Assembly (NCBI GenBank): GCA_964019135.1
Contig: OZ025258.1
Location: 372,001-436,000 of the forward strand
Length of the DNA: 64,000 nt
Direction: 5' to 3'
From: Arenicola marina
Taxonomy: Eukaryota > Annelida > Polychaeta > Arenicolidae
Below, in pieces: positions 7,851 to 64,000 of this stretch. The notes under the pieces are model-generated. The model was not told where the DNA came from. It saw only the letters and a list, made by a program, of their open reading frames with translations, and did no database searches. The position numbers and the translations under genes are program-made. Numbering within the stretch: position 1 is the stretch's first letter; every line of letters begins with the position of its first letter.

Positions 7851-7937
7851 CAAAGGGGTGGCCAAAGAGGTGCCTAAAGGGTGGCCAAAGGAGTGGCCAA
7901 AATGGTGGCCGAATAGGTGGCCCAAGCGGTGGTCACC

Positions 7938-15412: not shown

Positions 15413-16347
15413 TAGCCTGACCTATCCTGGCCTGGTCTGGCCGGGCCTAGCTGTGCCTGACCTATCCTGGCCTGGTCTGGCCGGGCCTAGCTGTGCCTGA
15501 CCTATCCTGGCCTGGTCTGGCCGGGCCTAGCTGTGCCTGACCTATCCTTGCCTGGTCTGGCCGGGCCTAGCTGTGCCTGACCTATCCTGGCCTGGTCTGG
15601 CCGGGCCTAGCTGTGCCTGACCTATCCTGGCCTGGTCTGGCCGGGCCTAGCTGTGCCTGACCTATCCTGGCCTGACCTGGCCGGGTCTAGCTGTGCCTGA
15701 CCTATCCTGGCCTGGTCTGGCCGGGCCTAGCTGTGCCTGACCTATCCTGGCCTGGTCTGGCCGGGCCTAGCTGTGCCTGACCTATCCTGGCCTGGTCTGG
15801 CCGGGCCTAGCTGTGCCTGACCTATCCTGGCCTGGTCTGGCCGGGCCTAGCTGTGCCTGACCTATCCTGGCCTGGTCTGGCCGGGCCTAGCTGTGCCTGA
15901 CCTATCCTGGCCTGGTCTGGCCGGGCCTAGCTGTGCCTGACCTATCCTGGCCTGGTCTGGCCGGGCCTAGCTGTGCCTGACCTATCCTGGCCTGGTCTGG
16001 CCGGGCCTAGCTGTGCCTGACCTATCCTGGCCTGGTCTGGCCGGGCCTAGCTGTGCCTGACCTATCCTGGCCTGGTCTGGCCGGGCCTAGCTGTGCCTGA
16101 CCTATCCTGGCCTGGTCTGGCCGGGCCTAGCTGTGCCTGACCTATCCTGGCCTGGTCTGGCCGGGCCTAGCTGTGCCTGACCTATCCTGGCCTGGTCTGG
16201 CCGGGCCTAGCTGTGCCTGACCTATCCTGGCCTGGTCTGGCCGGGCCTAGCTGTGCCTGACCTATCCTGGCCTGGTCTGGCCGGGCCTAGCTGTGCCTGA
16301 CCTATCCTGGCCTGGTCTGGCCGGGCCTAGCTGTGCCTGACCTATCC
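15413..16347. repeat. 40-bp minisatellite, nearly identical units
   Basis: About 23 units of 40 bp begin cctatcctggcctggtctgg and continue with ccgggcctagctgtgcctga. Almost all units are identical, with changes near 15548 and 15671-15690 only. This is the most homogeneous array in the window and therefore probably the youngest or most often homogenised. The unit itself is built from CCTGG/TCTGG pentamers. Confidence 0.95.
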
Positions 16348-16676
16348 TGGTCTGGCCTGGTCTGGCCTGATCTGGCCTGATCTGGCCTGATCTGCCCTAA
16401 CCTGATCTGGCATGCTCTGTTCTGGTCTGGCATGTCCTGATCTGGTCTGGCATGCCCTGATCTGGTCTGGCATGCTTTGGTCTGGTCTGGCATGCTCTGA
16501 TCTGGTCTGGCATGCTCTGGTCTGGTCTGGCATGCTCTGGTCTGGTCTGGCATGCTCTGGTCTGGTCTGGCATGCTCTGGTCTGGTCTGGCATGCTCTGG
16601 TCTGGTCTGGCATGCTCTGGTCTGGTCTGGCATGCTCTGGTCTGGTCTGGCATGCTCTGGTCTGGTCTGGCCTGGC
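16348..16676. repeat. 20-bp minisatellite joined to the 40-bp array
   Basis: About 14 units of catgctctggtctggtctgg continue directly from the preceding 40-bp array and share its TCTGG pentamer. It probably arose from the edge of that array by slippage of the pentamer. It ends 180 bases before the start codon of the RING gene. Confidence 0.94.
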
Positions 16677-29000: not shown

Positions 29001-32000
29001 CCCTGTATATACTGCCCCCCTCTATACATTGCCCCCCCCCCGCCTCTGTATAACCTCTCCTGTACAATGCCCCCCCCTGGAAGACCCTCCTCTGTGTAAC
29101 CTCCCCTGTACAATGCCCCCCCTGTATATACTGCCCCCCCTGTATATACTGCCCCCCCCCTGTATATACTATCCCCCTTATACAATGCCCCCCTCTGTGT
29201 AACCTCCCCTGTACAATGCCCCCCCTGTATATACTGCCCCCCCCCTGTATATACTGCCCCCCCCCCTGTATATACTATCCCCCTTATACAATGCCCCCTC
29301 TGTATAACCTCCCCTGTACAATGCCCCCCCTGTATATACTGCCCCCCTCTATACAATGCCCCCCCTGTATATACTGCCCCCCTCTATACATTGCCCCCCC
29401 CCGCTTCTGTATAACCTCTCCTGTACAATGCCCCCCCCTGGAAGACCCTCCTCTGTATAACCTCCCCTGTACAATGCCCCCCCCCCTGTTTTACTGCCTC
29501 CCCTGTACAATGCCCCCCCCCCTGTTTTACTGCCTCCCCTGTACAATGCCCCCCCCGCTGTATATACTGCCTCCCCCCTGTACAATGCCCCCCCCTGTAT
29601 ATACTGCCCCCCCCTGTAAGACCCCCTGGCTCTCTCTCCAGGTGTGAGCAGACCGAGTACCTGGATACCACGGACGTCAACGCTGCTCTTGGCAACCTCA
29701 GGGTCAGCTGTCCCGAAGATGGATGCGGTTCAAGGCCCCTCTCAAGGTCAGACTTCTTCCGCCAAGGTCGTTGCGTCCACGCGTAATGACCCAGCTATGT
29801 GAAGTTATGTTTGACGGGAATCCGTGGTATAACGGGAAAGTTATAGGAGGTTCTGACGTCGTTTCGAAACGACTAGAGAGCTGACTCGAATATGTTTCGG
29901 TTCTGCTTGGAATGGACGCGTTTGACACCAACCGTCATGTTATAGCTTAGGATATGACTTTAAGTTGAGACACTTTCGAAGGGTCCGCATCGTGAATATT
30001 GTCGTCTAACAGCATCGAACTTCATTAAACTGCAGCAAACATTAAAGCTGCTTATACAGCAGTTGCCACCTACATTATGAGTATAAAGATCTTGTTGAGA
30101 AAGGTCCTGGGTACATTGTCTGACTGTGTAAATGGCTTCCCAGGAATATATTGCTCCATGTGTACCGTTAACTGTCAAATACTGTAACATAGTTGTTGTG
30201 TAGAGGTGTCGAACATGTCAGTCGGTTTGTTGTAGATATTATTGATGCACAACCACGGCAAGGAGCGCTTCAGCAATGGCCACGTAGACCTGGAGGGTCT
30301 GCGGCCCACTCGCCTCCCCTATCCCGTCCGGGGCCTCCTGGCCCTCCCAGACATGGCCCTCATGGCCCTCAACGCCCAGGACGGGGTCTTCACCCCCCGG
30401 GAGCTGGGGGGCAGGGCAGGAGGGCCCGGGGCCGGGCGGGGACACCGTGCAAACGCCATCAGACATCAGCTGCGACAGGTGGGTGTGTGGGGTCTGGGGT
30501 CAGGGGTCACAGACCAGGGGTCACAGGTCGGGGGTCGGGGGTCACAGGGTCACAGGTCGGGGGGTCAGGGGTCACAGGTCAGGTGTGGTCACCATGGGGG
30601 TCACCATGGCCACATCGTCAGTCAATGTAGTTGATCTCTCGAGAGGGGTGGGGGAGTTGTCTGCATGTGGCTCCTTGAAATGTTAGTTGTCAGATTTTGT
30701 CATTTGGAGGCGCCCGTCACTATAGACTTCTCTTGCCCACTCCAAGCCGACCCTCTCAACCAGACCCACACTTCCCGCCCTACTGCCCCTCTATGACCTC
30801 CCCCCCCCCCCCCCCCACCCCCCAATCCCCCAGCAGTAGTGACTGAGCAGTGATACACACGAGACAGGGCAGCAGACTGCCGGTAAATGTTGTGGCCTTG
30901 AATTGCTTTCTGTCCCTGTGCTGTGTGAGACGTAGAGAGGGTGGTGGGGGGGGGGGGGGGGTGGCGGGGGGTGGCGGTAGCAACAGCAAGAGGAATACTT
31001 CCGTTTGTTGTTGTAATGGAGAGCCGGTCTAGTATGTACGTTGCCAGCTACTTTTAGCCTGTGCCACCTGCTGACGTCAGGTACAAGCCTCCCCGTCCCC
31101 CACTCCGCCTCCCACCCTCCACCACCTCCACACTGCAGTCCCCACGTTATGGCTTTGTTTGTTCCTCAGTAAATACACCGGCAGCAAGTCCAGAAAATAT
31201 TACAAGACGCTTTATTATTGCAAGGGAACTTTCCACAAACAGATAATTTGTTTTTTTGTGTATAGTCCTACTCAAGCCGCTGAGTTATGTACTGTTTATT
31301 TGTTGATTGCATGAAACGCTAGGGGTGGGTCCGAACACCATGCCCCCCCCCCCTTTTAAGGAAGAATGGCCAGGTTAGGCCGTCTGAGGCGTGGACCCCC
31401 CCATTTCGTAGCAAGAAGGCTATCTGAGGCGGCGTGGACCCCCCCCCCCACCACCGGTCGTCAAAAAAATTGGTGGATTGGTCGCATTTAATTCAGCCCC
31501 CCCCCCCCTCCCGGCCAGTCGTCCGTTTCAATGGACCCCTCCCTTCCCATATTCCTGGATCCGCCCCTATAACGTAACAGTAGCATAAGACATGTTCCCG
31601 TGTTCGGTTTTAGATGTATAATCGCCATGAATTATGTCTCCATGTGTAATCCAGACACCAGTCGTGGCAGTTGCCGTGTCGCACATAACTCGTGGATACA
31701 GATTGGTTCGTTACAGACTATGTAGGAGTAATAAGAACATCAAACTTGTCCCATTTACACCATACAACAAATCATTCATATATGTTAAAACTTTAACTTC
31801 GAGTATTTCATATCCGTCTTGCATATCTTATTCTCGCCTTATAAACCAACCTAAATAGAACTTCGCCAATATCGTCCTGCTGTGGGCCTGCTGGCTGTTG
31901 CGATCCTGTGGTACCTTGCAGGGTCGCATTATGACTAATTGTGTCAAATTATCAAGCCGTTCAGCTGTCTTGCAGGGTCGCATTATGGATGATTCACCAT

Positions 32001-36827: not shown

Positions 36828-39608
36828 CTACAGAAAACGGCAAGAAGGGTATAATATATAAACAACGGCAAGAAGGTTATAATATATAGACAACGGCAAG
36901 AAGGTTATAATATATAGACAACGGCAAGAAGGTTATAATATATAGACAACGGCAAGAAGGTTATAATATATAGACAACGGCAAGAAGGTTATAATATATA
37001 GACAACGGCAAGAAGTTATAATATATAGACAACGGCAAGAAGGTTATAATATATAGACAACGGCAAGAAGTTATAATATATAGACAACGGCAAGAAGGTT
37101 ATAATATATAGACAACGGCAAGAAGGTTATAATATATAGACAACGGCAAGAAGTTATAATATATAGACAACGGCAAGAAGGTTATAATATATAGACAACG
37201 GCAAGAAGGTTATAATATATAGACAACGGCAAGAAGGTTATAATATATAGACAACGGCAAGAAGTTATAATATATAGACAACGGCAAGAAGGTTATAATA
37301 TATAAACAACGGCAAGAAGGTTATAATATATAGACAACGGCAAGAAGGTTACAATATATAGACAACGGCAAGAAGTTATAATATATAGACAACGGCAAGA
37401 AGGTTATAATATATAAACAACGGCAAGAAGGTTATAATATATAGACAACGGCAAGAAGGTTATAATATATAGACAACGGCAAGAAGGTTATAATATATAG
37501 ACAACGGCAAGAAGGTTATAATATATAGACAACGACAAGAAGGTTATAATATATGGACAACGGCAAGAAGGTTATTATATATAGACAACAGCAAGAAGGT
37601 TATAATATATAGACAACGGCAAGAAGGTTATTATATATAGACAACAGCAAGAAGGTTATAATATGTAATATTTACACTGATATTCAAATATGTGCACACT
37701 GCGGGTACACTGATATTATTTATGAAAATCGCTACGCATGCGTACATAACATGCGATCTCTTTCGTTTTCCCCAGTGGAGGTCGACTTCCGGTGGATTTC
37801 ACCAGCTTATAACAATATGGGATTCAGATATAGATTTTGTCGTTTTTTACGTGTGTGCGTCTAAAGAGTTCACTATGTTTGCTATTAACAAGATAAATTA
37901 AACGTTTTAAAACCGAATTCGAGACTTTTTCGCGGCTATAATACTGGTGTTGTGGACTGGTGGGGTGGCGCGGCGGCCTGTGTTGCGGGCGGCCTGTGTT
38001 GCGGAGTGGTCTGTGGGGTGATGGGGGTGGTGGGGGTGGTGGACTGACCCAGGTGAAGGCGTACTTGAGGCACAGCTCCCAGCACACCATGGTGACGGGA
38101 GTCCTGAGGTCGCGCAGCACGATGTGCGCGGCGTCAGGGTCAGCCAGGAAGTTGAACTCTGCGCATGCGTTCAATGGAGTATTCCCCGTGGCTGCAAGAG
38201 ACGATGACGGATGTCAGCACAGCCCGCCAGATGGCGCCACGCTATCAGGTATTAGAAAAGTCGCTACGAACCCCGGTCAGCTGCGCCCAGGAAAGGTGTG
38301 CATCCAGCAATGACGCAGCCATTATCACTACGCATCACATTGCGCATCACATTGCGCATCACATTGCGCAAAGGGTTAAAGCTAACTGTATAATGAGACC
38401 TTGCACCACAAGACGTATATCTTGGTGGAGTTTAATAACATTGTAATATAGCAATGCATCATTTTCATATATTAGTCACTTGGCAATATTTATCGTTACT
38501 AGACGTACCTTCGTAGTTTCCACCCATAATGAAGCACTCCTTAAGGTTGGCGCCGAACATAGGGTCCATCCTGAGAGCCATGGCCACGTTGGTCAGAGGA
38601 CCCAGGCATATCAGGGTTAACTGGCCTGCAAGGAGTGTACAGTGTTACAGCGGTGGCCAGCAGTCTGGGGCAGATGGTGATACACTGTAGTCTATTGTGA
38701 TTAAATATCTAACATGGAAGTACTATCACAAACCAATGCTCGTTATGATTTATTGCCAACGAACTTACATTAAAGTAACATATACCACATTTTCCTGAGT
38801 AAATAACCAACTTGTGTCGTGGACATGACCTTAACGCATTGTTCCGTCTGTATTAGTGTTAACTATTAAAGGATGTATACATTATCATATCAGTCAGCGT
38901 CAGCAAGGAACTAAATTGTATGATGTAGTACACAGAACGTCGCTTACCTTCCTGAACCAGTTTAACCCTTTCCTGCCCAGTTTCACCTTTGAGGCGGTTG
39001 GCCAATTTAACCCAGCGAGAAAAGGTTTAACCCTTCCTGCCCAGTCTCACCTTTGAGGCGGTTGGCCAGTTTGACCAGTGCGTGCACGGCGTGTTCTTGC
39101 TGCAGACACTCGATAGAGGGCGCCTCAGGATCCGGGCACTCCCCGAAACCGTCCTCTCCGTGGCAAAAAGACGCCGAGATCCTGTCTCCGTGAAGAGGCT
39201 TGCAAGCGCCTTGGTATACAGGAATCTGGCGGGTCACATCGGCTCAAGTTTAATAATTGAAAGACAAATATATATCCATATATCAAGCGGTTGATCTCCC
39301 ACGGAGGCTTCACATTTCAGTTATTGTACGAAAACGTAATCTAAGGCCATAAATCAGCAAGGAAGAAATTGAATGAGATGTTAAGATATGATTATACCAC
39401 GCTGACCACTTACATTCATTCTTCCCGCCACTTTCAGGACGCGCAATGTGTTGCGAGACGTCTGCTCCACCGTCACGTTGCCATGGGTGACGGTGATGGC
39501 GACGACCTCGGTGTCTGGAGAGGCCAGCGCCATCAGGATCCCCTGGGCGTCATCCACGCCGGGATCCGTGTCGATCACCACCAACCGCTTGGTGGGGGCC
39601 GGAGACAT
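36489..39608 (-). CDS. inosine-uridine preferring nucleoside hydrolase (5 exons)
   Basis: Exons in order are 39608-39414, 39225-39051, 38625-38509, 38191-38049 and 36827-36489. Every junction is GT-AG and every phase agrees, giving 322 codons, the usual length of the family. Nucleoside hydrolases cleave the N-glycosidic bond of ribonucleosides to ribose and base in purine and pyrimidine salvage. Diagnostic features are the calcium/ribose-binding motif DTDPGVDDAQ near residue 10-20, ICLGPLTNVA near 130, MGGNYEATGNTP followed by AEFNFLADPDAA near 155-180, and a C-terminal AVDHDTYGN with the His/Asp pair expected to contact the nucleoside and metal. The start ATG (gtcgccATGt) is the only Met that begins just before the motif. 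No signal peptide is seen, so it is probably cytosolic. All key residues I can check are present, so the gene looks functional. Confidence 0.92.
36832..37668. repeat. 28-bp minisatellite in the last hydrolase intron
   Basis: About 30 units of 28 bp contain acaacggcaagaagg and ttataatatatag, with some 27-bp units lacking one g. The first unit starts within about ten bases of the acceptor of exon 5, so the array supplies that acceptor's pyrimidine tract. Units near the distal end are more diverged (ttattatatatag, acaacagc). Confidence 0.96.
38049..38191 (-). CDS. nucleoside hydrolase exon 4
   Basis: The acceptor is gtctcttgcag. The exon reads TGNTPLNACAEFNFLADPDA and ends at LKYAFTW. The EFN and DP.AA residues line the ribose pocket in the family. 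The donor is TGG|GTCAGT in phase 0. Confidence 0.92.
38509..38625 (-). CDS. nucleoside hydrolase exon 3
   Basis: The exon encodes GQLTLICLGPLTNVAMAL and ends at IMGGNYE. GPLTN and MGG are family hallmarks. The acceptor is ctccttgcag and the donor is GAAG|GTACGT. The split codon GCC joins to the next exon. Confidence 0.92.
38961..39078 (-). repeat. tandem duplication of the exon 2 donor region
   Basis: About 52 bases (38961-39015 and 39026-39078) are present twice with roughly 90% identity, sharing cacctttgaggcggttggcc. On the minus strand each copy reads as the end of exon 2 followed by a GTGAGA or GTGAAA donor. The gene-side copy (donor at 39050) gives the correct phase. Reading on to the second copy meets a stop first. 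Confidence 0.85.
39051..39225 (-). CDS. nucleoside hydrolase exon 2
   Basis: The acceptor is gacccgccag. The exon starts IPVYQGACKPL, the conserved strand after the Rossmann-like start, and ends LVKLANRLK plus one base. It includes an acidic, Cys-containing insert (CHGEDGFGECPDPEAP) in the region of the flexible active-site loop. The donor is AAAG|GTGAGA, and a second copy of this donor lies about 64 bases downstream. Confidence 0.9.
39414..39608 (-). CDS. nucleoside hydrolase exon 1
   Basis: The exon encodes MSPAPTKRLVVIDTDPGVDD, the metal-binding DxDxxxDD loop, and continues to LKVAGRMN. The donor is AAT|GTAAGT, phase 0. A possible acceptor (cacccccag) 12-18 bases before the ATG allows a 5' UTR intron. 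Confidence 0.92.
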
Positions 39609-39975: not shown

Positions 39976-42211
39976 GATGGCGAGGGACTAGACCACCTAC
40001 CCCGTCAAGCAGAATATTATCACAGAAAGAACCTTATAGTGTTCGGCCTTCAAGAAGGAATCGCAATGACAGATTTGTAAGACAGGTACACACAAAATAT
40101 GCTGAAAACCGTCATATATTACCAATATTTTGGCTTTTTCTCCATCACTTAAAAGGACAGTAGCTCTTGGAACTTTAGTAAAGAAAGCTGAATAAACTAC
40201 GTTTGTCATCAGATCATGCTTATCATCAAATCGCAATGAGGCGACTTATGGGCTCGGGTCAGCCTTGATATGTTCAATAAGATGATTTTTCTTATTCTAC
40301 TCTGGATCTGGGGATACAGGGATGCAGATCAGAAGGAATCATGGCTAACATTAATACCCTCCACCTTTTGCTTGACACCCAGAAGACGGTCAATCATAAC
40401 TTTTAATTGTCGAACCGGAAAGTTACGTTCAAAATATAAAAAGTCGTTTTGCAAATCTAACATACCTGTATCCCAGGGTACAGCAGCTCGCCCGCAATGT
40501 CCTAACTACGCTGTGATTGAGCACTCTGGCGTGTGTCGCTGGTCCAGAGGGGACTGGGGGGCCGCTCACGCTGTGCCACGGCTCCTCAGGTTGAAGATGT
40601 GAACCTTTCTCGGTGCCTGGAGAGACAGGATGTGGAGGCTGGCACCAAGGCTCGAGCGGTGACAGGCGTGCTCGTTCTTCAAATACATGAGCTGTTCTTA
40701 GAGATCTGCATAACTATCAAAGACAAGTATCTTGGCTGACGCGTGAAGCTGTATCCGCTGGCTTTAATTTCGGTTCGACGTTGGGTGTGTGTCGGGTCTA
40801 TGTCGGTCTGTTGCGGGTTCTGTCTCGGATCTGCCCTGTGGCGTGTACGGCGGAAGACGGCAGGCCCGGGCAGAGAGTGACGGTGACACCCTGAGGGCCT
40901 TCGGTGCCGGGTTATATGGCAGTCTGACGCCCGCATGGTGGGGGCTGGCCCGTCCCATTACGGGTCAACAACTGGGCCCCCGATGTTCTGACGCACGACC
41001 CTACATGTGGGAACATACAAATCAGCAGCCACTGACATGCGGAGAGCGGGGGGGGGTGGGGGGACACATGGTGACTAACGCACAAGCCTGACAGGGCAGG
41101 CCATCACCGCCTCCACCCCGCAGCTCGCCAGCCCTGATAAATGAAGTTATTGTTGAAAAAGTGGAATATGGTGGTCAAGATGTTACGCCTGGTGTTACAC
41201 GCATGGTGGCCGCCCACCTAGCGTGGTAACTATCAGCCAACCATCCGCCAACATATCAGACAATGTTGGCCCAATATTGGACTTCAACAATGGCCCAACA
41301 TTTCTGTGCTCATTGGCGATCAGTTGGTCCTACGGAAATTGCGAACCATCCACCAACCATGGGCCAACAAATCGCCAACATCGGCCCTACGTCAGTTACA
41401 ACACTCTGCCTATGTTGGTTCAAGGTAGTTACCCCTTAGTTCTTATACCTAATTATGAAAAATATGTTTAGTAGTTATTTGGCTCGCTAAAAAAAGAATG
41501 TTCATTGCTTAACTGACTTATATAATTACCCTAATTACCACCAGGAAGCTGGTGTGGACAAATCACGAAAGGAACGTCAGAGAAAAGGTACACCAGAACT
41601 TGGTGCCACAATCCATAAATACTAGATGTAAGGGACATTACAAACAAGAAAATATTATTCCATTTTCTGGAAGCTACTCATTGAATTAGATTGTATGCAT
41701 TCATCAAGCACGGCAGTGCAAAGCAACTGACAATTTAAACTCAGCTATTGAGATGACAGAATGTGGTCCAACGAACAATCACAATCCAGGACACCATATC
41801 CTGCCTTGCATACTTTACAGTCCCATTCTGTGACGTAATACACAAATACGACTTAACAGCATCATCATCAAGCCATACACACGCATACTTCAACAGCACC
41901 GTTATCAATAAAACACTCATTGTGCCATGACCTCGGCACCTGCAAGTTCAATAGAGTAAAAACGAAAGTAACTCCCAGAGGCAATACTGAAATCGGTGCA
42001 ACTCGGCTATCACAATGATGACTTTCTCAAGCCAGGAAGGCGTACTAAGCCTTGACAACGCATATATCAACACCAAGAGTAAACAAACGATCACGATCAG
42101 AATAGTCCGCGCCTAATAAACGGCGCAGACAGGTGATGCACACACAATTACGGTATACCATGTATGTACCGCTTAACTACTCCTTAATGAATCACGGCGC
42201 GGTCGTTTCGC
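39976..42211. other. intergenic, no gene recognised; CCAAC-rich patch
   Basis: This is mixed-composition DNA between the hydrolase gene and the 24-bp array. From about 41215 to 41425 the text repeats gccaac, ttggcc and cggccctacg on both strands, as in some short inverted-repeat transposons, but termini cannot be fixed. No exon with supported borders was found. Confidence 0.5.
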
Positions 42212-45200
42212 AGCGTCCTCTCGCTGTCTCCCTGCAACGTCCTCTCGCTGTCTCCCTGCAGCGTCCTCTCGCTGTCTCCCTGCAACGTCCTCTCGCTGTC
42301 TCCCTGCAGCGTCCTCTCGCTGTCTCCCTGCAACGTCCTCTCGCTGTCTCCCTGCAGCGTCCTCTCGCTGTCTCCCTGCAACGTCCTCTCGCTGTCTCCC
42401 TGCAACGTCCTCTCGCTGTCTCCCTGCAACGTCCTCTCGCTGTCTCCCTGCAACGTCCTCTCGCTGTCTCCCTGCAACGTCCTCTCGCTGTCTCCCTGCA
42501 ACGTCCTCTCGCTGTCTCCCTGCAACGTCCTCTCGCTGTCTTCATGCAGCGTCCTCTCGCTGTCTCCCTGCAGCGTCCTCTCGCTGTCTCCCTGCAACGT
42601 CCTCTCGCTGTCTCCCTGCAGCGTCCTCTCGTTGTCTCCCTGCAGCGCCCTCTCGCTGTCTCCCTGCAGCGTCCTCTCGCTGTCTCCATGCAGCGTCCTC
42701 TCGCTGTCTCCATGCAGCGTCCTCTCGCTGTCTCCCTGCAGCGTCCTCTCGCTGTCTCCATGCAGCGTCCTCTCGCTGTCTCCATGCAGCGTCCCCTCGC
42801 TGTCTCCCTGCAGCGTCCTCTCGCTGTCTCCCTGCAGCGTCCTCTCGCTGTCTCCATGCAGCGTCCCCTCGCTGTCTCCCTGCAGCGTCCTCTCGCTGTC
42901 TCCATGCAGCGTCCCCTCGCTGTCTCCCTGCAGCGTCCTCTCGCTGTCTCCCTGCAGCGTCCTCTCGCTGTCTCCATGCAGCGTCCTCTCGCTGTCTCCA
43001 TGCAGCGTCCCCTCGCTGTCTCCCTGCAGCGTCCTCTCGCTGTCTCCCTGCAGCGTCCTCTCGCTGTCTCCATGCAGCGTCCCCTCGCTGTCTCCCTGCA
43101 GCGTCCTCTCGCTGTCTCCCTGCAGCGTCCTCTCGTTGTCTCCCTGCAGCGCCCTCTCGCTGTCTCCCTGCAGCGCCCTCTCGCTGTCTCCCTGCAGCGC
43201 CCTCTCGCTGTCTCCCTGCAGCGTCCTCTCGCTGTCTCCCTGCAGCGTCCTCTCGCTGTCTCCCTGCAACGTCCTCTCGCTGTCTCCCTGCAGCGTCCTC
43301 TCGCTGTCTCCCTGCAACGTCCTCTCGCTGTCTTCCTGCAGCGTCCTCTCGTTGTCTCCCTGCAGCGCCCTCTCGCTGTCTCCCTGCAGCGTCCTCTCGC
43401 TGTCTCCATGCAGCGTCCTCTCGCTGTCTCCATGCAGCGTCCTCTCGCTGTCTCCCTGCAGCGTCCTCTCGTTGTCTCCCTGCAGCGCCCTCTCGCTGTC
43501 TCCCTGCAGCGCCCTCTCGCTGTCTCCCTGCAGCGCCCTCTCGCTGTCTCCCTGCAGCGTCCTCTCGCTGTCTCCATGCAGCGTCCTCTCGTTGTCTCCC
43601 TGCAGCGTCCTCTCGCTGTCTCCCTGCAGCGTCCTCTCGTTGTCTCCCTGCAGCGCCCTCTCGCTGTAACCCTGCAGCGTCCTCTCGCTGTCTCCATGCA
43701 GCGTCCTCTCGCTGTCTCCATGCAGCGTCCTCTCGCTGTCTCCCTGCAGCGTCCTCTCGTTGTCTCCCTGCAGCGCCCTCTCGCTGTCTCCCTGCAGCGC
43801 CCTCTCGCTGTCTCCCTGCAGCGCCCTCTCGCTGTCTCCCTGCAGCGTCCTCTCGCTGTCTCCATGCAGCGTCCTCTCGCTGTCTCCCTGCAACGTCCTC
43901 TCGCTGTCTCCCTGCAGCGTCCTCTCGTTGTCTCCCTGCAGCGCCCTCTCGCTGTCTCCCTGCAGCGTCCTCTCGCTGTCTCCCTGCAACGTCCTCTCGC
44001 TGTCTCCATGCAGCGTCCTCTCGCTGTCTCCATGCAGCGTCCTCTCGCTGTCTCCCTGCAGCGTCCTCTCGTTGTCTCCCTGCAGCGCCCTCTCGCTGTC
44101 TCCCTGCAGCGTCCTCTCGTTGTCTCCCTGCATCGTCCTCTCGCTGTCTCCATGCAGCGTCCTCTCGCTGTCGCCATGCAGCGTCCTCTCGCTGTCTCCA
44201 TGCAGCGTCCTCTCGTTGTCTCCCTGCATCGTCCTCTCGCTGTCTCCATGCAGCGTCCTCTCGCTGTCTCCATGCAGCGTCCTCTCGTTGTCTCCCTGCA
44301 TCGTCCTCTCGTTGTCTCCCTGCATCGTCCTCTCGCTGTCTCCATGCAGCGTCCTCTCGCTGTCTCCATGCAGCGTCCTCTCGCTGTCTCCATGCAGCGT
44401 CCTCTCGCTGTCTCCATGCAGCGTCCTCTCGCTGTCTCCCTGTAGCGTCCTCTCGTTGTCTCCCTGCAGCGCCCTCTCGCTGTCTCCATGCAGCGCCCTC
44501 TCGCTGTCTCCCTGCAGCGTCCTCTCGCTGTCTCCATGCAGCGTCCTCTCGCTGTCTCCCTGCAACGTCCTCTCGCTGTCTCCCTGCAGCGTCCTCTCGT
44601 TGTCTCCCTGCAGCGCCCTCTCGCTGTCTCCCTGCAGCGTCCTCTCGCTGTCTCCATGCAGCGTCCTCTCGCTGTCTCCCTGCAGCGTCCTCTCGCTGTC
44701 TCCCTGCATCGTCCTCTCGCTGTCTCCCTGCATCGTCCTCTCGCTGTCTCCCTGCAGTGTCCTCTCGCTGTCTCCATGCAGCGTCCTCTCGCTGTCTCCA
44801 TGCAGCGTCCTCTCGCTGTCTCCCTGCAGCGTCCTCTCGCTGTCTCCCTGCAGCGTCCTCTCGCTGTCTCCCTGCAGCGTCCTCTCGCTGTCTCCCTGCA
44901 GCGTCCTCTCGCTGTCTCCATGCAGCGTCCTCTCGCTGTCTCCCTGCAGCGTCCTCTCGCTGTCTCCCTGCATCGTCCTCTCGCTGTCTCCCTGCATCGT
45001 CCTCTCGCTGTCTCCCTGCAGCGTCCTCTCGCTGTCTCCATGCAGCGTCCTCTCGCTGTCTCCATGCAGCGTCCTCTCGCTGTCTCCCTGCAGCGTCCTC
45101 TCGCTGTCTCCCTGCAGCGTCCTCTCGCTGTCTCCATGCAGCGTCCTCTCGCTGTCTCCCTGCAGCGTCCTCTCGCTGTCTCCCTGCAGCGTCCTCTCGC

Positions 45201-46455
45201 TGTCTCCCTGCATCGTCCTCTCGCTGTCTCCCTGCAGCATCCTCTCGCTGTCTCCCTGCAGCGTCCTCTCGCTGTCTTCCTGCAGCGCCCTCTCGCTGTC
45301 TCCATGCAGCGTCCTCTCGCTATCTCCATGCAGCGTCCTCTCGCTGTCTCCATGCAGCGTCCTCTCGCTGTCTCCCTGCAGCGTCCTCTCGCTGTCTCCC
45401 TGCAGCGTCCTCTCGCTGTCTCCCTGCAGCGTCCTCTCGCTGTCTCCCTGCAGCGTCTTCTCGCTGTCTCCCTGCAGCGTCCTCTCGCTGTCTCTCTGCA
45501 GCGTCCTCTCGCTGTCTCCCTGCAGCGTCCTATCGCTGTCTCCCTGCAGCGTCCTCTCGCTGTCTCCCTGCAGCGTCCTCTCGCTGTCGCCCTGCAGTGT
45601 CCTCTCGCTGTCCCCCTGCAGCGTCCTCTCGCTGTCTCCCTGCAGGGCCCTCTCGCTGTCTCCCTGCAGGGCCCTCTCGCTGTCTCCCTGCAGCGTCCTC
45701 TCGCTGTCTCCCTGCAACGTCCTCTCGCTGTCTCCCTGCAACGTCCTCTCGCTGTCTCCCTGCAGCGTCCTCTCGCTGTCTCCCTGCAGCGTCCTCTCGT
45801 TGTCTCCCTGCAGCGCCCTCTCGCTGTCTCCCTGCAGCGCCCTCTCGCTGTCTCCCTGCAGCGCCCTCTCGCTGTCTCCCTTCAGCGTCCTCTCGCTGTC
45901 TCCATGCAGCGTCCCCTCGCTGTCTCCCTGCAGCGTCCTCTCGTTGTCTCCCTGCAGCGTCCTCTCGCTGTCTCCCTGCAGCGTCCTCTCGCTGTCTCCC
46001 TGCAGCGTCCTCTCGCTGTCTCCCTGCAGCGTCCTCTCGCTGTCTCCCTGCAGCGTCCTCTCGCTGTCTCCATGCAGCGTCCCCTCGCTGTCTCCCTGCA
46101 GTGTCCTCTCGCTGTCTCCCTGCAGCGTCCTCTCGCTGTCTCCCTGCAGCGTCCTCTCGCTGTCTCCCTGCAGTGTCCTCTCGCTGTCTCCCTGCAGCGT
46201 CCTCTCGCTGTCTCCCTGCAGCGTCCTCTCGCTGTCTCCCTGCAGTGTCCTCTCGCTGTCTCCCTGCAGCGTCCTCTCGCTGTCTCCATGCAGTGTCCTC
46301 TCGCTGTCTCCCTGCAGCGTCCTCTCGCTGTCTCCCTGCAGTGTCCTCTCGCTGTCTCCCTGCAGCGTCCTCTCGCTGTCTCCATGCAGTGTCCTCTCGC
46401 TGTCTCCCTGCAGCGTCCTCTCGCTGTCTCCCTGCAGCGTCCTCTCGCTGTCGCC
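42212..46455. repeat. 24-bp minisatellite, about 177 units, partly coding
   Basis: Units contain cgtcctctcgctgtctccct followed by gcag, gcaa or, in other units, tccatgcag. The length is strictly 24 bp, so all frames keep register, and several frames on both strands stay open for over 2-4 kb. Blocks of variants recur in the same order (for example gttgtctccctgcagcgccc groups every 300 bases), showing multi-unit copying. The right end of the array (46455 to 45530) is continuous and in frame with the last exon of the minus-strand DUF4806 gene. Confidence 0.98.
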
Positions 46456-46557
46456 TGCCTCCCTCACGATCCCCCGCAAACCGCAACCATTTCTTTACGA
46501 CATCTTCCATGTCCGCATTGCTGGCGTTAGCTGTGGACAGGTTGCGTCTTGTAGCTC
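45530..46557 (-). CDS. DUF4806 gene exon C plus coding minisatellite
   Basis: The acceptor is cctattacaaaacag. One base from exon B plus GA gives Gly. The exon then reads ATRRNLSTANASNADMEDVV and KKWLRFAGDREGGRRQ, the C-terminal helix of the domain. From there the frame enters the 24-bp array without a break and encodes about 38 copies of RQREDAAG (variants RQREDTAG, RQREGAAG, RQREDAAW, RQRGDAAW). It stops at a TAG produced by a substitution in one unit at 45530. Confidence 0.7.
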
Positions 46558-47541
46558 CTGTTTTGTAATAGGATCGGAATATACTTACGTAAACATGACA
46601 TTGCTGATACAAGGCTAAACTACTGAAGAATACCGGAGGCAAAATACAGTACAATTCGAAACTACGTGTATAAGAGTAGTTCAATATAACATGAACTGTA
46701 GGGTCAGTAGCAGGTATATCAGATAGAGGGTTGGCTCTTGACAGGGATGAGAACGTTTTTGTGACCAGAATATGTGATCTGCCCTAGGAGAAAATACGAA
46801 AAATACGACCTGAAAGTGGGGGCAGGGATACCCCCCCCCCCCTCCGCGGTTCCGTCAATGCAGTAAAGGTACACATCTAATAGCGTTGTGTCACAGGATT
46901 GCCACACTTACCATACACCAGATGGCGCAGATTCAGAATAGAAAATGCCATCTTCCCCCCTTTTCCCACCCAGTTCATCTTCTTCGCCACGTCATTAGAC
47001 AACATGTGGGCCATCAGACGACGCACCGTCTTCTCCACCGTGTGGCCACCAATATAGGATATGCTGCTGATCTGCGTGCAAGAAACATAAAAAACATGTT
47101 TAAATTTGAAAGACCTTTAATTAGGGGTATCGCAGTCACAGATTACAATTGAGACTTTCTTAAACATTGTGTTATGATTCATTTTTGCTTGAACCCAGGC
47201 ACTGAAGCTTGGCCAACTAAATTTTAGCCAAGGCCTTATTTTTCGCACATTTCATTTCAACACATTGCAAAATACTTAGATCTAGATAGCAATTATAACT
47301 CCTTAGATTTACAGCGTCTTATATACCGTTTGCCGCAACGTATCTTCTTCGTCGAGACGCCCGTCAACGGCATGAAGTTCCTCCAATGATTAGATCGGGA
47401 ATGAGATTCCCTCTGGTGAGGGTGCTGCGGCGCCGGTCAAGTTAGGTCGCTGGCTAATATGCGCGAGGAGCGCCTCGTTGTGTTCATTCTGCTGCTGCAT
47501 ACCTTCTACGACTTGCAGCATAGCAATCTCGTATTCAGTCA
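45530..47541 (-). CDS. DUF4806-domain gene with repeat-encoded C-terminus
   Basis: Three minus-strand exons are supported: 47541-47327, 47071-46912 and 46557-45530. All junctions are GT-AG and all phases agree. Together they give the typical layout of the DUF4806 domain: FPI followed by SLEELHAVDGRLDEED, then SYIGGHTVEKTVRRLMAHML, then WVGKGGKMAF, then ADMEDVVKKWLRFAGDREGG. DUF4806 proteins are widespread in invertebrates, are often multicopy, and have no established function. One in-frame TAA replaces the expected Lys after FPI in the first exon, so the copy may be a young pseudogene, a null allele or carry a base error. Upstream N-terminal exons were not found and may lie in the gap at 48253. 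The last exon continues into the 24-bp minisatellite. Confidence 0.72.
46912..47071 (-). CDS. DUF4806 gene exon B
   Basis: The acceptor is gtttcttgcacgcag and the donor is ATG|GTAAGT. The exon encodes ISSISYIGGHTVEKTVRRLM and NWVGKGGKMAFSILNLRHLV, the core of DUF4806 with the invariant IGG and the W-x-GKGGK-x-F pattern. The exon is intact. Confidence 0.8.
47327..47541 (-). CDS. DUF4806 gene exon A
   Basis: The acceptor is gttgccaactatttcag. The exon reads TEYEIAMLQVVEGMQQQNEH, a likely coiled segment, then LTGAAAPSPEGISFPI, one stop, and SLEELHAVDGRLDEEDTLRQ. The donor is ACG|GTATAT, phase 0. Apart from the stop the exon looks well preserved. Confidence 0.68.
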
Positions 47542-47999
47542 CTGAAATAGTTGGCAACGGAAAAACTAGAATCCCATACATAACTAGAGATCATAACACA
47601 ACTAAGATATTGTTGAAGGGGATCGGGTCTAAGATTTTAAGTCTCCAATTCCTTACAATATGGATTCTGGCCCTAACTATCTTTGGTTCCCAGTGTGTTA
47701 TGATATAATATGGGAGCAGATACTGCAGTCATATATTGTGTTGATGCTGTCTTGGGTAGCCCAGGGACCTCGCTCTGAAGAGCGTCATAATCTCTCGCGG
47801 CTTCTTATATAGGTTCAAGTCTCTTCGTTTGTTTATATTTTATAAGTTGTTTAAGAGCTACCATTTGATAATAGTCCAATCCTCCTGTAACAGCTGCCAC
47901 TGACCAGCCATTGCCCAGAGCCAGGGGATACTGCACATACTGCGCTATGGCATCGGGGCAGGGGCTGGTTTAGGTGAAGGGAGTTTGGGGATCAACGTG
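47542..47999. other. no feature recognised
   Basis: About 460 bases separate the DUF4806 exons from the repeat and gap at the end of the receptor gene. I see no N-terminal DUF4806 exon and no receptor exon here. Confidence 0.5.
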
Positions 48000-48252: not shown

Positions 48253-48452
48253 NNNNNNNNNNNNNNNNNNNNNNNNNNNNNNNNNNNNNNNNNNNNNNNN
48301 NNNNNNNNNNNNNNNNNNNNNNNNNNNNNNNNNNNNNNNNNNNNNNNNNNNNNNNNNNNNNNNNNNNNNNNNNNNNNNNNNNNNNNNNNNNNNNNNNNNN
48401 NNNNNNNNNNNNNNNNNNNNNNNNNNNNNNNNNNNNNNNNNNNNNNNNNNNN
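48253..48452. other. assembly gap (200 N) inside the receptor gene
   Basis: A 200-N placeholder of unknown true size cuts the receptor after transmembrane segment 5. The segment 6-7 part and C-tail of the receptor, and possibly the first exons of the DUF4806 gene, are expected in or next to it. Confidence 0.99.
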
Positions 48453-55916: not shown

Positions 55917-58900
55917 CTTAGATACATTACGGGGCGTCCGGTGATGACTGGGGGATGGCAGACGGGGAGCCAGATACATTACGGGGCGTCAGGTGATGGC
56001 TGGGGGATGGCAGACGGGGAGCCAGATACATTACGGGGCGTCAGGTGATGGCTGGGGGATGGCAGACGGGGCCCAGATACATTACGGGGCGACAGGTGAT
56101 GGCTGGGGGATGGCAGACGGGGGGCCAGATACATTACGGGGCGTCAGGTGATGACTGGGAGATGGCAGAAGGGGCGTCAGGTGATGACTGGGGGATGGCA
56201 GAAGGGGCGTCAGGTGATGACTGGGGGATGGCAGACGGGGGGCCAGATACATTACGGGGCGTCAGGTGATGGCTGGGGGATGGCAGACGGGGCCCAGATA
56301 CATTACGGGGCGTCAGGTGATGGCTGGGGGATGGCAGACGGGGGGCCAGATACATTACGGGGCGTCAGGTGATGACTGGGAGATGGCAGAAGGGGCGTCA
56401 GGTGATGACTGGGGGATGGCAGAAGGGGCGTCAGGTGATGACTTGGGGATGGCAGACGGGGGGCCAGATACATTACGGGGCGTCAGGTGATGACTGGGAG
56501 ATGGCAGACAGGGGGCCAGATACATTACGGGGCGTCAGGTGATGACTGGGAGATGGCAGACAGGGGGCCAGATACATTACGGGGCGTCAGGTGATGACTG
56601 GGAGATGGCAGACAGGGGGCCAGATACATTACGGGGCGTCAGGTGATGACTGGGGGATGGCAGACGGGGGCCAGATACATTACGGGGCGTCAGGTGATGA
56701 CTGGGGGATGGCAGACGGGGCGTCAGTGATGACTGGGGGATGGCAGACGGGGCGTCAGGTGATGACTGGGGGATGGCAGACGGGACGTCAGGTGATGGCT
56801 GGGGGATGGCAGAAGGGGCGTCAGGTGATGACTGGGGGATGGCAGAAGGGGCGTCAGGTGATGACTGGGGGATGGCAGACGGGGGGCCAGATACATTACG
56901 GGGCGTCAGGTGATGACTGGGAGATGGCAGACAGGGGGCCAGATACATTACGGTGCGTCAGGTGATGACTGGGAGATGGCAGACAGGGGGCCAGATACAT
57001 TACGGGGCGTCAGGTGATGACTGGGAGATGGCAGACAGGGGGCCAGATACATTACGGGGCGTCAGGTGATGACTGGGGGATGGCAGACGGGGGGCCAGAT
57101 ACATTACGGGGCGTCAGGTGATGACTGGGGGATGGCAGACGGGGCGTCAGGTGATGACTGGGGGATGGCAGACGGGGCGTCAGGTGATGACTGGGGGATG
57201 GCAGACGGGACGTCAGGTGATGGCTGGGGGATGGCAGACGGGGCGTCAGGTGATGACTGGGGGATGGCAGACGGGACGTCAGGTGATGGCTGGCGGATGG
57301 CAGACGGGCCGTCAGGTGATGACTGGGGGATGGCAGACGGGACGTCAGGTGATGGCTGGGGGATGGCAGACGGAGCGTCAGGTGATGACTGGGGGATGGC
57401 AGACAGGGCGTCAAGTGATGACTGGGGGATGGCAGACAGGGGGCCAGATACATTACGGGGCGTCAGGTGATGACTGGGGGATGGCAGACGGGGCGTCAGG
57501 TGATGACTGTGGGATGGCAGACGGGGCGTCAGGTGATGGCTGGGGGATGGCAGACAGGGCGTCAAGTGATGAGTGGGGATGGCAGACAGGGCGTCATGTG
57601 ATGACTGGGAGATGGCAGAGGGTGCGTCAGGTGATGGGTGGGGGATGGCAGACGGGGCGTCAGGTGATGACTGGGGATGGCAGACGGGGCGTCAGGTGAT
57701 GACTGGGGATGGCAGACGGGGCGTCAGGTGATGACTGGGAGATGGGAGACGGAGGGCCAGATACATTAGGGGGCGTCAGGTGATGATTGGGGATGGCAGA
57801 CGGGGCGTCAGGTGATGATTTGGGGATGGCAGACGGGGGGCCAGATACATTATGGGGCGTCAGGTGATGACTGGGGGATGGCAGACGGGACGTCAGGTGA
57901 TGATTGGGGGATGGCAGACAAGGGACCAGATAATTAGGGGGCGTCAGGTGATGATTGAGGGATGGTAGACGTGGGGCCAGATACATTACGGGACGTCAGG
58001 TGCTGATTGGGGGAGGGCAGACAGGGGGCCAGATACATTAGGGGGCGTCAGGTGATGATTGAGGGATGGCAGACCGGGGGCCAGGTACATTATGGGGCGT
58101 CAGGTGATGATTGGGGGATGGCAGACAGGGGGCCAGCTACATTAGGGGGCGTCAGGTGATGATTGAGGGATGGCAGACAGGGGGCCAGATACATTAGGGG
58201 GCGTCAGGTGATGACTTAGGGAAGACAGACGGGGAGCCAGATACATGACGGGGCGTCGGGTGATGATTTTAGGATGGCAGACGGAGGGCCAGATACATTA
58301 GGGGGCGTCAGGTGATGACTGAGGGATGGCAGACGGGGCGTCAGGTGATGACTTAGGGAAGACAGACGGGGAGCCAGATACATGACGGGGCGTCGGGTGA
58401 TGATTGGAGGATGGCAGACGGAGGGCCAGATACATTAGGGGGCGTCAGGTGATGACTGAGGGATGGCAGACGGGGCGTCAGGTGATGACTTAGGGAAGAC
58501 AGACGGGGAGCCAGATACATGACGGGGCGTCGGGTGATGATTGGAGGATGGCAGACGGGGGGCCAGATACATTAGGGGGCGTCAGGTGATGACTGGGGGA
58601 TGGCAGACGGGGGGCCAGATACATTACGGGGCGTCAGGTGATGACTGGGGGATGGCAGACGGGGGGCCAGATACATTACGGGGCGTCAGGTGATGACTGG
58701 GGGATGGCAGACGGGGGGCCAGATACATGACGGGCGTCAGGTGATGACTGGGGGATGGCAGACGAGGCGTCAGGTAATGACTGCGGGATGGCAGACGGGG
58801 GGCCACATTCATTACGGGGCGTCGGGTGGTGACTGGGGATGGCAGACGGGGGGCCAGATACATGACGGGCGTCAGGTGATGACTGGAGGATGGCAGACAG

Positions 58901-61900
58901 GGAGCCAGATACATTACGGGGCGTCGGGTGATGATTGGAGGATGGCAGACGGGGGCCAGATACATTACGGGTTCGTCGGGTGATGGCTGGGGGATGGCAC
59001 ACGGGGGGCCAGATACATTACGGGGCGTCAGGTGATGACTGGAGGATGGCAGACAGGGAGCCAGATACATTACGGGGCGTCGGGTGATGATTGGAGCATG
59101 GCAGACAGGGGCCAGATACATTACGGGTTCGTCGGGTGATGACTGGGGGATGGCACACGGGGGGCCAGATACATTACGGGGCGTCAGGTGATGACTGGGG
59201 AATGGCAGACGGGGGCCAGATACATTACGGGGCGTCGGGTGATGGCAGACGGGGGGCCAGATACATTTCGGGGCGTCAGGTGATGACTGGGGAATGGCAA
59301 ACGGCGCGTCAGGTGATGATTGGGGGATGGCAGATGTGGGGCCAGATGCATTACGGGGCGGCAGATGATGACTGGGGGATGGCAGACGGGGCGTCAGATG
59401 ATGACTGGGAGATGGCAGACGGGGCGTCAAGTGATGACTGGAGGATGGAAGACGGGGGGCCAGATACATTAGGGGGCGTCAGGTGATGACTGGGGGATGG
59501 CAGACGGGGCGTCAGGTGATGATTGGGGAATGGCAGACGGGGGGCCAGATACATTACGGGGCGTCAGTTGATGACTGGGGGATGGCAGAAGGGACGTCAC
59601 GTGATGATTGAGGGATGGCAGACGGGGCATCTGGTGATGACTGGGGGTGGCAGACGGGGCGTCAGGTGATGACTGGGGGATGGCAGACCCGGGGCCAGAT
59701 ACATGACGGGGCGTCAGGTGATGACTGGGGGATGGCAGACGGAGTGTCAGGTGATGATTGGGGGATGGCAGACGGGACGTCAGGTGATGATTGGGGGATG
59801 GCAGACAGAGGGTCAGATATATTAGGGGGCGGCAGATGATGATTGAGGGATGGCGGACGTGGGGCCAGATACATTATGGGGCGTCAGGTGATGACTGTAG
59901 GATGGCAGACTGGGGGCCAGAAACATTACGGGGCGTCAGGTGATGACTGGGGATGGCGGACGAGGGGCCAGATACATGACGGGGCGTCAGGTGATGACTG
60001 GGGGATGGCAGACGGGGGGGCAGATACATTACGGGGCGTCAGGTGATGACTGGGTGATGGCAGACGGGGGTCCAGATACATTACGGGGCGTCAGGTGATG
60101 ACTGGGGGATGGCAGGCGGGGCAGCAGATACATTACGGGGCGTCAGGTGATGACTGGGGGAGCACAGACGGGGGTCCAGATACATTACAGGGCGTCAGGT
60201 GATGACTGGGGGAGAGCAGACGGGGCGTCAGGTGATGACTGGGGGACGGCAGACGAGGCGTCAGGTGATGACTGGGGGATGGCAGACGGGGCGTCAGGTG
60301 ATGACTGGGGGATCACAGACGGGGATCCGGATACATTACAGGGCGTCAGGTGATGACTGGGGGAGAGCAGACGGGGCGTCAGGTGATGACTGGGGGACGG
60401 CAGACGAGGCGTCAGGCGATGACTGGGGGATGGCAGACGGGGCGTCAGTTGATGACTGGGTGATCACAGACGGGGGTCCAGATACATTACAGGGCGTCAG
60501 GTGATGACTGGGGGAGAGCAGACGGGGCGTCAGGTGATGACTGGGGGACGGCAGACGAGGCGTCAGGTGATGACTGGGGGATGGCAGACGGGGCGTCAGG
60601 TGATGACTGGGGGATCACAGACGGGGATCCGGATACATTACAGGGCGTCAGGTGATGACTGGGGGAGAGCAGACGGGGCGTCAGGTGATGACTGGGGGAC
60701 GGCAGACGAGGCGTCAGGTGATGACTGGTGGATGGCAGACGGGGCGTCAGGTGATGACAGGGGGATCACAGACGGGGGTCCAGATACATTACGGGGCGAC
60801 AGGTGATGACTGGGGGATGGCAGACGGGGAGCCAGATAGATGACGGCGCGTCGAGTGGTGACTGGGGTTGGCAGACGGGGCGTCAGGTGATGACTGGGAG
60901 ATGGCAGACGGAGGCCAGATCCATTACGGGGAGTCAGGTGATGACTGGGGGATGGCAGACGGGGGCCAGATACATTACGGGGTGTCAGGTGATGGCAGAC
61001 GGGGGGTCAGATACATAACGGGGCGTCAGGTTATGACTGGGGGATGGCAGACGAGGGGCCGGATACATTACGGGGCGTCAGGTGATGACTGGGGGATGGC
61101 AGACGGGGGCCAGATACATTACGGGGCGTCAGGTGATGACTGGGGGATGGCAGACGGGGCCCAGATACATTACGGGCGTCAGGTGATGACTGGGTGATGG
61201 CAGACGGGGGGCTAGATACATTACGGGGCGTCAGGTGATGACTGGGGGATGGCAGACGGGGCCCAGATACATCACGGGGAGTCAGGTGATGACTGGGTGA
61301 TGGCAGACGGGGGGCCAGATACATTACGGGCGTCAGGTGATGACTGGGTGATGGCAGACGGGGGGCTAGATACATTACGGGGCGGCAGATGATGACTGGG
61401 GGATGGCAGACGGGGCGTCAGATGATGACTGGGAGATGGCAGACGGGGCGTCAAGTGATGACTGGAGGATGGAAGACGGGGGGCCAGATACATTAGGGGG
61501 CGTCAGGTGATGACTGGGGGATGGCAGACGGGGCGTCAGGTGATGATTGGGGAATGGCAGACGGGGGGCCAGATACATTACGGGGCGTCAGTTGATGACT
61601 GGGGGATGGCAGAAGGGACGTCACGTGATGATTGGGGGATGGCAGACGGGGCATCTGGTGATGACTGGGGGTGGCAGACGGGGCGTCAGGTGATGACTGG
61701 GGGATGGCAGACCCGGGGCCAGATACATGACGGGGCGTCAGGTGATGACTGGGGGATGGCAGACGGAGTGTCAGGTGATGATTGGGGGATGGCAGACGGG
61801 ACGTCAGGTGATGATTGGGGGATGGCAGACAGAGGGTCAGATATATTAGGGGGCGGCAGATGATGATTGAGGGATGGCGGACGTGGGGCCAGATACATTA

Positions 61901-64000
61901 TGGGGCGTCAGGTGATGACTGTAGGATGGCAGACTGGGGGCCAGAAACATTACGGGGCGTCAGGTGATGACTGGGGATGGCGGACGAGGGGCCAGATACA
62001 TGACGGGGCGTCAGGTGATGACTGGGGGATGGCAGACGGGGGGGCAGATACATTACGGGGCGTCAGGTGATGACTGGGTGATGGCAGACGGGGGTCCAGA
62101 TACATTACGGGGCGTCAGGTGATGACTGGGGGATGGCAGGCGGGGCAGCAGATACATTACGGGGCGTCAGGTGATGACTGGGGGAGAGCAGACGGGGCGT
62201 CAGGCGATGACTGGGGGATGGCAGACGGGGCGTCAGTTGATGACTGGGTGATCACAGACGGGGGTCCAGATACATTACAGGGCGTCAGGTGATGACTGGG
62301 GGAGAGCAGACGGGGCGTCAGGTGATGACTGGGGGACGGCAGACGAGGCGTCAGGTGATGACTGGGGGATGGCAGACGGGGCGTCAGGTGATGACTGGGG
62401 GATCACAGACGGGGATCCGGATACATTACAGGGCGTCAGGTGATGACTGGGGGAGAGCAGACGGGGCGTCAGGTGATGACTGGGGAACGGCAGACGAGGC
62501 GTCAGGTGATGACTGGTGGATGGCAGACGGGGCGTCAGGTGATGACAGGGGGATCACAGACGGGGGTCCAGATACATTACGGGGCGACAGGTGATGACTG
62601 GGGGATGGCAGACGGGGAGCCAGATAGATGACGGCGCGTCGAGTGGTGACTGGGGTTGGCAGACGGGGCGTCAGGTGATGACTGGGAGATGGCAGACGGA
62701 GGCCAGATCCATTACGGGGCGTCAGGTGATGACTGGGGGATGGCAGACGGGGGCCAGATACATTACGGGGTGTCAGGTGATGGCAGACGGGGGGTCAGAT
62801 ACATAACGGGGCGTCAGGTTATGACTGGGGGATGGCAGACGAGGGGCCGGATACATTACGGGGCGTCAGGTGATGACTGGGGGATGGCAGACGGGGGCCA
62901 GATACATTACGGGGCGTCAGGTGATGACTGGGGGATGGCAGACGGGGCCCAGATACATTACGGGCGTCAGGTGATGACTGGGTGATGGAGGACGGGGGGC
63001 TAGATACATTACGGGGCGTCAGGTGATGACTGGGGGATGGCAGACGGGGCCCAGATACATCACGGGGAGTCAGGTGATGACTGGGTGATGGCAGACGGGG
63101 GGCCAGATACATTACGGGGCGTCAGGTGATGACTGGGGGATGGCCGACGGGGCGTCAGGTGATGACTGGGTGATGGCCGACGGGGGGCGAGATACATTAC
63201 GGGGCGTCAGGTGATGACTGGGGGATGGCAGACGGGGGCCAGATACATTACGGGGCGTCAGGTGATGACTGGGGGATGGCAGACAGGGGGCCAGATACAT
63301 TAGGGGGCGGCAGGTGATGATTGAGGGATGGCCGACAGGACATCAGGTGATGATTGGGGGATGGCAGACAGGGGGCAAGATACATTACGGGGCGTCAGGT
63401 GATGACTGGGGGATGGCAGACAGGGGGCCAGATACATTAGGGGGCGGCAGGTGATGATTGAGGGATGGCAGACGGGGCGTCAGGTGATGACTGGGGGATG
63501 GCAGACAGGGGGCCAGATACATTAGGGGGCGGCAGGTGATGATTGAGGGATGGCAGACGTGGGGCTAGATACATTACGGGGCGTCAGGTGATGACTGGGG
63601 GATGGCAGACGGGGCGTCAGGTGATGACTGGGGGATGGCAGACGGGGGTCCAGATACATTACGGGCGTCAGGTGATGACTGGGGGATGGCAGACGGGGGC
63701 CAGATACATTACGGGGCGTCAGGTGATGACTGGGGGATGACAGACGGGGGCCAGATACATTATGGGGCGTCAGGAGATGTCTGGGGGATGGCAGACGGGG
63801 GACCAGATTCATTACGGGGCGTCGGGTCATGACTGGGTGATGGCAGACGGGGAGCCAGATAAAATACGGGGCGTCTGGTGATGACTGGGTGATGGCAGAC
63901 GTGGGGCCAGATACAATACGGGGCGTCGGGTGATGACTGGGTGATGGCAGACGTGGGGCCAGATACATTACGGGGCGTCAGGTGATGACTGGGGGATGGC
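55917..64000. repeat. compound 33-bp / 52-bp minisatellite
   Basis: The array runs off the right edge. The short unit of 33 bp contains gcgtcaggtgatgactgggg then gatggcagacggg. The long unit of about 52 bp is the same plus gggccagatacattacggg. Both forms alternate irregularly, with one-base length changes that shift frames. A local 221-bp higher-order unit is copied at 56045 and 56266. Between 57770 and 58560 variants with tgattgaggg and gaagacagac are more diverged. Confidence 0.97.
59357..63100 (+). repeat. 2-kb tandem duplication inside the array
   Basis: The sequence from 59357 is repeated from 61381 with an offset of 2024 bases and near identity. After about 60160 the right copy lacks about 236 bases, and the offset becomes 1788 (60484 matches 62272). 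Sample matches are gcggcagatgatgactgggg at both starts and ggatccggatacattacagg in both. Variant positions inside units also match, so this is one event and not parallel change. Confidence 0.9.

Follow-up and report, generated by a model that had tools for sequence, protein, structure and literature searches.

A probable coding minisatellite in the tail of a putative helper protein of a CACTA/TRC-like DNA transposon in Arenicola marina

Animal TRC elements have been described as having a terminal repeat starting with CCC, a 2-bp direct repeat and an L-D-x-M/L-H-x3-L-G motif, and the same source reports that in plant CACTA elements the TNPA protein binds DNA and TNPD interacts with TNPA (PMC1636069). 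The DUF4806 domain has been described separately as a BEN-type DNA-binding domain (PMC11075544). Here, we analysed a stretch of 64,000 nucleotides of the Arenicola marina genome (C11:372001-436000, genome of 867 Mb), hereafter the window, in which the last exon of a DUF4806 gene is followed by a 24-bp minisatellite. Judging from the sequence, this array most probably encodes the C-terminal tail of the second protein of an animal CACTA/TRC-like DNA transposon with two genes. The window copy has the following features:

41213..47767, minus strand: decayed, 5'-truncated copy of the putative CACTA/TRC-like DNA transposon, matching positions about 5550-8200 of the 8,200-bp C14 element
41213..41228, no strand assigned: 3' terminal repeat of the window copy, decayed (CCCACCTAGCGTGGTA); fresh copies have CCCAGCTAGCATGGTA
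47313..47541, minus strand: predicted exon A of the DUF4806 gene, coding for the first part of the domain; splice sites judged by eye
47390..47392, minus strand: in-frame TAA within exon A of the window copy (FPI-stop-SLEELH), position counted by hand; CAA in all seven other array copies
46912..47066, minus strand: predicted exon B of the DUF4806 gene, coding for the second part of the domain, with donor GTAAGT; splice sites judged by eye
45530..46557, minus strand: exon C, conserved C-terminal helix followed in frame by the array; ends with TAG at 45532-45530
42210..46452, minus strand: 24-bp minisatellite of 177 units in 28 distinct forms, with consensus AGACAGCGAGAGGACGCTGCAGGG (RQREDAAG)
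42173..42209, minus strand: post-array tail of the window copy, in which the family stop codon is TCA and the next stop is TAA at 42175-42173

As the initial annotation had read it, the DUF4806 exon runs in frame into the array: the acceptor CAG ends at 46558 (by eye), the exon B-exon C junction is in phase (HLVYG followed by ATRRN), and exon C begins with KKWLRFAGDREGGRRQREDAAG and continues through about 38 RQREDAAG units to the TAG. The joined exons, with an X placed at the in-frame stop, pass the gathering threshold of Pfam DUF4806 (PF16064) with 31.6 bits for a cutoff of 25. The match terminates inside exon B and the helix of exon C lies just beyond the Pfam model, so the description of exon C as a conserved-domain exon holds for its conserved helix and not for the domain core. 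Neither a transposase in the window nor an Rfam match at gathering scores was found.

Tandem Repeats Finder (TRF) reports the array with a period of 24 bp and 176.8 copies over 4,243 bases (42210-46452), and every one of the 176 unit spacings is 24 bp. The consensus unit is open in all three minus-strand frames, and an open frame alone is thus of little meaning; the coding frame is singled out because of the evidence in other copies. Stops in this frame occur within the window array at 45532, 45322 and 42544, and the frame leaves the array into the TAA at 42175. Among the unit variants of the window, 6 classes are synonymous, 13 are non-synonymous and 3 are stops (6.0, 14.7 and 1.4 expected); in another array copy, C3d, the corresponding numbers are 10, 26 and 3. 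No selection on the repeat units was detected from the variant classes of these two copies, which look neutral.

Strong matches to window positions 46451-47600 were found on C3, C14, C19 and C373. The array is present at the same place in eight copies, with 6.4, 10.4, 42.4, 52, 70, 97, 114 and 176.8 units, the last being the window copy; the variation in tail length put forward in the initial annotation is therefore borne out within a single genome, and the notion of a tail unique to the window was rejected on account of the seven other arrays. The copies on C14 (288933-297132), C373 (132474-141650) and C19 (8371269-8380524), which are 97-100% alike along their aligned stretches and are referred to as fresh, have 6, 10 and 42 units, and the five older copies have 52-177.

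The C14 element is 8,200 bp long, and in all three fresh copies the 5' end carries the terminal repeat CCCAGCTAGCATGG and the 3' end its inverse, the two matching at 16 of 16 bp in C14 and at 15 of 16 in C19 and C373. Target duplications of 2 bp (AC/AC, TA/TA, AG/AG) flank each of these three copies, the ones with both ends read; the window copy is without its 5' end. An ORF of 697 amino acids in C14 contains LDYMHMVCLG, which corresponds to the transposase motif L/V/I-D-x-L/M-H-x3-L-G, and has a sub-threshold match to DUF4218 (about 23.8 bits, cutoff 27). This ORF is unbroken in C14 only, being broken in C19 and in C373, where it was read from inside. The CCC terminal repeat, the 2-bp duplication and the LDYMHMVCLG sequence led us to call the element CACTA/TRC-like; since no match to Pfam Transposase_21 (PF02992) was found at E up to 10, with HMMER filters that drop weak matches, we did not file it as a member of that group. 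Past the C373 copy, from about position 7245 of locus L062, lies a transposase-like ORF of a related family with open stretches of 432 and 223 amino acids, the former having a weak, sub-cutoff SCAN match as its sole Pfam outcome.

The second gene of C14 matches DUF4806 with 34.4 bits (cutoff 25). A candidate first exon (MFLIVEFDQTNEV...) was assigned by its likeness to DUF4806 proteins, and a Pfam search of it gave no match; about 40 bp of it are missing from C19. For exons A to C, the comparison of C14 with the window gave a dN/dS of 0.227 (160 codons, leaving out the stop codon), which indicates purifying selection on a DUF4806 gene still functional as the two subfamilies diverged. At the last step, within the fresh trio, no constraint on this gene is visible (3, 3 and 4 non-synonymous changes for 1, 1 and 0 synonymous). 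GTTGGC/GCCAAC-type motifs are found 6 times in the first 400 bp of C14, 5 times in the last 200 bp and 5 times elsewhere, a count made with a motif picked after the ends were seen and without a shuffle control; these clustered motifs are candidate binding sites.

With a query built from the fresh copies, we found at least 11 3' ends in the genome, a lower bound; the window's own lies at 41213, and the array copy C3d falls outside this set. The array is absent from 4 of the 11, read over 2.7-2.95 kb: three match only beyond the array and one has other sequence there.

In the fresh copies the array has the characters of a coding minisatellite, namely a 24-bp unit, a frame kept on entry and exit and a variable copy number. 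Exon C is open through 6, 10 and 42 units, without stop or frameshift, and terminates five codons past the array (DAAKRQR(R/C)D-stop). A normal stop ahead of the first unit, which the initial annotation had considered, is thus not what these copies have. The post-array stop is at the same codon in seven of the eight array copies, as TGA in three and TAA in four, and is lost only in the window. The four C3 copies read RRE-stop after the array in the unit frame. Read from exon C, each of them meets a stop or a frameshift within its array, which makes the post-array stop a relic, and their arrays contain spacings of 23, 27 and 32 besides 24. The fresh arrays consist of only two unit types, E and D, plus an end unit, and their order differs from copy to copy (EDEDDD, EDDDEDDEDD and a 42-letter string), which suggests that the array was rearranged faster than point changes accrued. 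A pattern of one and a half units was found, among the matches listed (at least 118), exclusively within known arrays.

Exons B-C have at least 150 matches across the genome. The last exons of family B end GGRRQRDETRRHTQQDA-stop at 13 loci, one with GARR, and those of family C end GGRRERDTAGKRKNQE-stop at 4 loci; in all 17 the stop follows GGRR at a distance of 12 or 13 codons, and no array continues the frame. A further copy, at C11:15454, reads GG-stop-QERDAACKRKNTE-stop, with a stop directly after GG and a one-unit tail behind it. When the array is read as a single unit, the tail becomes RRQREDAAKRQRRD-stop, which aligns without gaps, and at equal length, with the RRERDTAGKRKNQE-stop of family C: 14 codons plus stop, as also in the C11 copy. 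In codon shuffles, the 26 of 45 bases that the one-unit tail shares with family C have a P of 0.006, and the 24 of 45 shared with the C11:15454 copy one of 0.009; at the protein level the likeness is less marked (P 0.012 and 0.069). The family B tail is one codon longer and matches at 22 of its first 45 bases, the shuffles having covered the other two sister tails; the exact one-unit length is found in two of the three. These comparisons support, without proving it, the earlier proposal of the coding end as the seed of the array. The C11:15454468 locus, with an open frame of 270 amino acids, had been a candidate for another family having a long tail that is translated, but it has a one-unit tail and a stop. 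Family B (L036-L047) has a second array at the same exon end, by which the protein is not extended: a segment of about 116-122 bp, which includes the exon end, the stop and a run of C, occurs in up to 3.7 copies behind the last DUF4806 exon and is reported by TRF in 8 of the 13 loci.

As for the window copy, its sequence indicates that it is dead, because two thirds of the element are missing from its 5' side, including the transposase and the putative first exon of gene 2, because exon A contains a TAA and because the unit variants are neutral. The silent pseudogene that had been considered as an outcome is hence what this locus appears to be. Two of the C3 copies (C3f and C3g) have a stop of their own in exon A, 4 codons before the site of the window TAA. 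The four C3 array copies (L061, L066, L067, L068; C3:22.57-22.99 Mb) have their 5' breakpoint in common with the window copy. No transposase match was found in them within the 9.9 kb read; this, the shared breakpoint and three shared 3' flanks indicate that local duplication had a part in the spread of the C3 subfamily.

The surroundings of the window copy are themselves rich in repeats, tandem repeats making up 54% of the window according to TRF. About a dozen other large arrays are present; unrelated minisatellites with periods from 20 to more than 100 bp occupy 1435-5774, 6632-7850, 8574-10176, 11214-12837, 15415-16380, 17894-21130, 21614-23700, 24729-25725, 26050-29613, 36832-37664 and 55920-64000. 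Two runs of exactly 200 N (25828-26027 and 48253-48452) are assembly gaps beside repeats. The window starts 372 kb from a contig end and the stretch may be subtelomeric. The growth of the array to 177 units fits such local instability, though the C3 copies (22.6-23.0 Mb on their contig) hold 52 to 114 units although they do not lie close to its end.

Could the open frame be a simple by-product of a stop-free 24-bp unit, in a non-coding minisatellite that expanded downstream of the gene? A unit open in all three minus frames, the neutral variants of the window array and the many unrelated arrays of a window that is 54% tandem repeat would agree with this. However, a post-array stop kept at the same codon in seven of eight copies by two different codons, a one-unit tail that aligns with sister tails ending in a stop, and fresh arrays of 6, 10 and 42 units free of stops and frameshifts argue against it, and we regard a non-coding array as unlikely. 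Far less probable still is a host DUF4806 gene expressed from the window locus with a working tail of variable length. Such a gene is what the initial annotation would imply if taken literally, in line with splice sites in phase and about 38 open units, but the evidence points to the second protein of a DNA transposon: copies are dispersed and carry terminal repeats, on which ground a host gene was rejected, and at the window locus the 5' two thirds of the element and the family stop are lost, exon A has TAA where seven other copies have CAA, the array frame contains three stops and the unit variants are neutral.

A different question is whether selection has acted on the tail, once coding, as a rigid helix of tuned length in the transposase helper, the number of units tuning mobility and copies over the limit dying. 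A helix is predicted in the coding frame only, and the shortest three arrays are those of the fresh copies (6, 10 and 42 units against 52-177; exact rank P 1/56, a value overstated by the test since the copies are not independent, three of the five older ones, C3e, C3f and C3g, sharing their flanks). Growth may, however, simply continue after the death of a copy, and the unit variants look neutral, with no selection on units detected, so that such tuning seems rather improbable to us.

If the array is the tail-coding segment of the second gene of the transposon, the following sequence of events can be envisaged. A piece of 8 codons of the original tail would have been duplicated in tandem in the ancestor of the array-bearing family, and the array would then have grown and shrunk via slippage or repair, 24 bp preserving the frame and a tail beyond the folded domain probably tolerating added units. 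Elements with 6 to 42 units may have stayed mobile, or their arrays may have changed after insertion, and the array of the dead window copy would have drifted and swelled to 177 units. By analogy with TNPA of plant CACTA elements, the DUF4806 protein is predicted to be a DNA-binding helper of the transposase.

As regards the tail itself, AlphaFold2 models the product of exon C of C373 as a single helix spanning residues 13-118 of 119 (mean pLDDT 91.8), and the same DNA read one base on as having no helix (mean pLDDT 57.0); both are single-sequence models, which for charged repeats are weak evidence. An alpha helix rises 1.5 Å per residue. Our best guess, from these models, is a charged helical rod that gains 8 residues with each unit and would lengthen by about 12 Å. 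It is conceivable, albeit improbable, that the tail acts as an evolvable ruler, a DNA-binding helper with one charged helix at its end, the coding minisatellite determining how long this helix is, so that each insertion can encode a helper of its own reach, with effects on the bridging of element ends or the pairing of helpers. If so, the 6 to 42 units of the fresh copies would correspond to roughly 7 to 50 nm.

This single genome appears to hold a likely before-state (the one-unit sister tails), a live state (6, 10 and 42 units) and a dead state (52 to 177), and the origin, growth and restraint of coding repeats can thus be put to a direct test. The little-studied DUF4806 domain is, moreover, placed beside a transposase in a CACTA/TRC-like transposon. 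Word searches for coding repeats in transposons, in a single literature collection, returned nothing to the point, from which absence in print does not follow. In the texts naming DUF4806, as far as they were available, no link to a CACTA/TRC-like transposon was found. What appears to be new is thus a CACTA/TRC-like transposon whose putative helper protein has a coding-minisatellite tail, within a kind of thing that is already known.

Single alpha-helix (ER/K) rods are charged helices. The Arenicola tail resembles them as a charged R/E/D/Q/A repeat predicted to form one long helix, and differs in having one Gly per 8 residues. Its gene scores above the cutoff for the DUF4806 proteins (PF16064), but the other last exons have no in-frame array. 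The closest described elements are SmTRC1 and the animal TRC group, which share with ours the CCC terminal repeat, the 2-bp direct repeat, the transposase motif, a second protein without a transposase domain and a 3' tandem-repeat region; in contrast, the account of SmTRC1, in the passages available, does not call these repeats coding or name DUF4806, and Transposase_21 is unmatched in the Arenicola element (PMC1636069). A review of transposon-born tandem repeats likewise treats the transposon as a repeat seed and has a CACTA entry in its Table 1, but the cases it presents in the part available seed genomic satellites or minisatellites rather than a kept coding tail of variable length (PMC9659126). 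The plant element Jozin also has a tandem array within a CACTA-like element, toward its 3' end. Its 171-bp units lie outside coding sequence and are, in the part of the paper available, mostly referred to as "captured", once as "captured (or possibly generated)" (PMC8978399), whereas the 8-codon units of the Arenicola element look amplified from its own coding tail.
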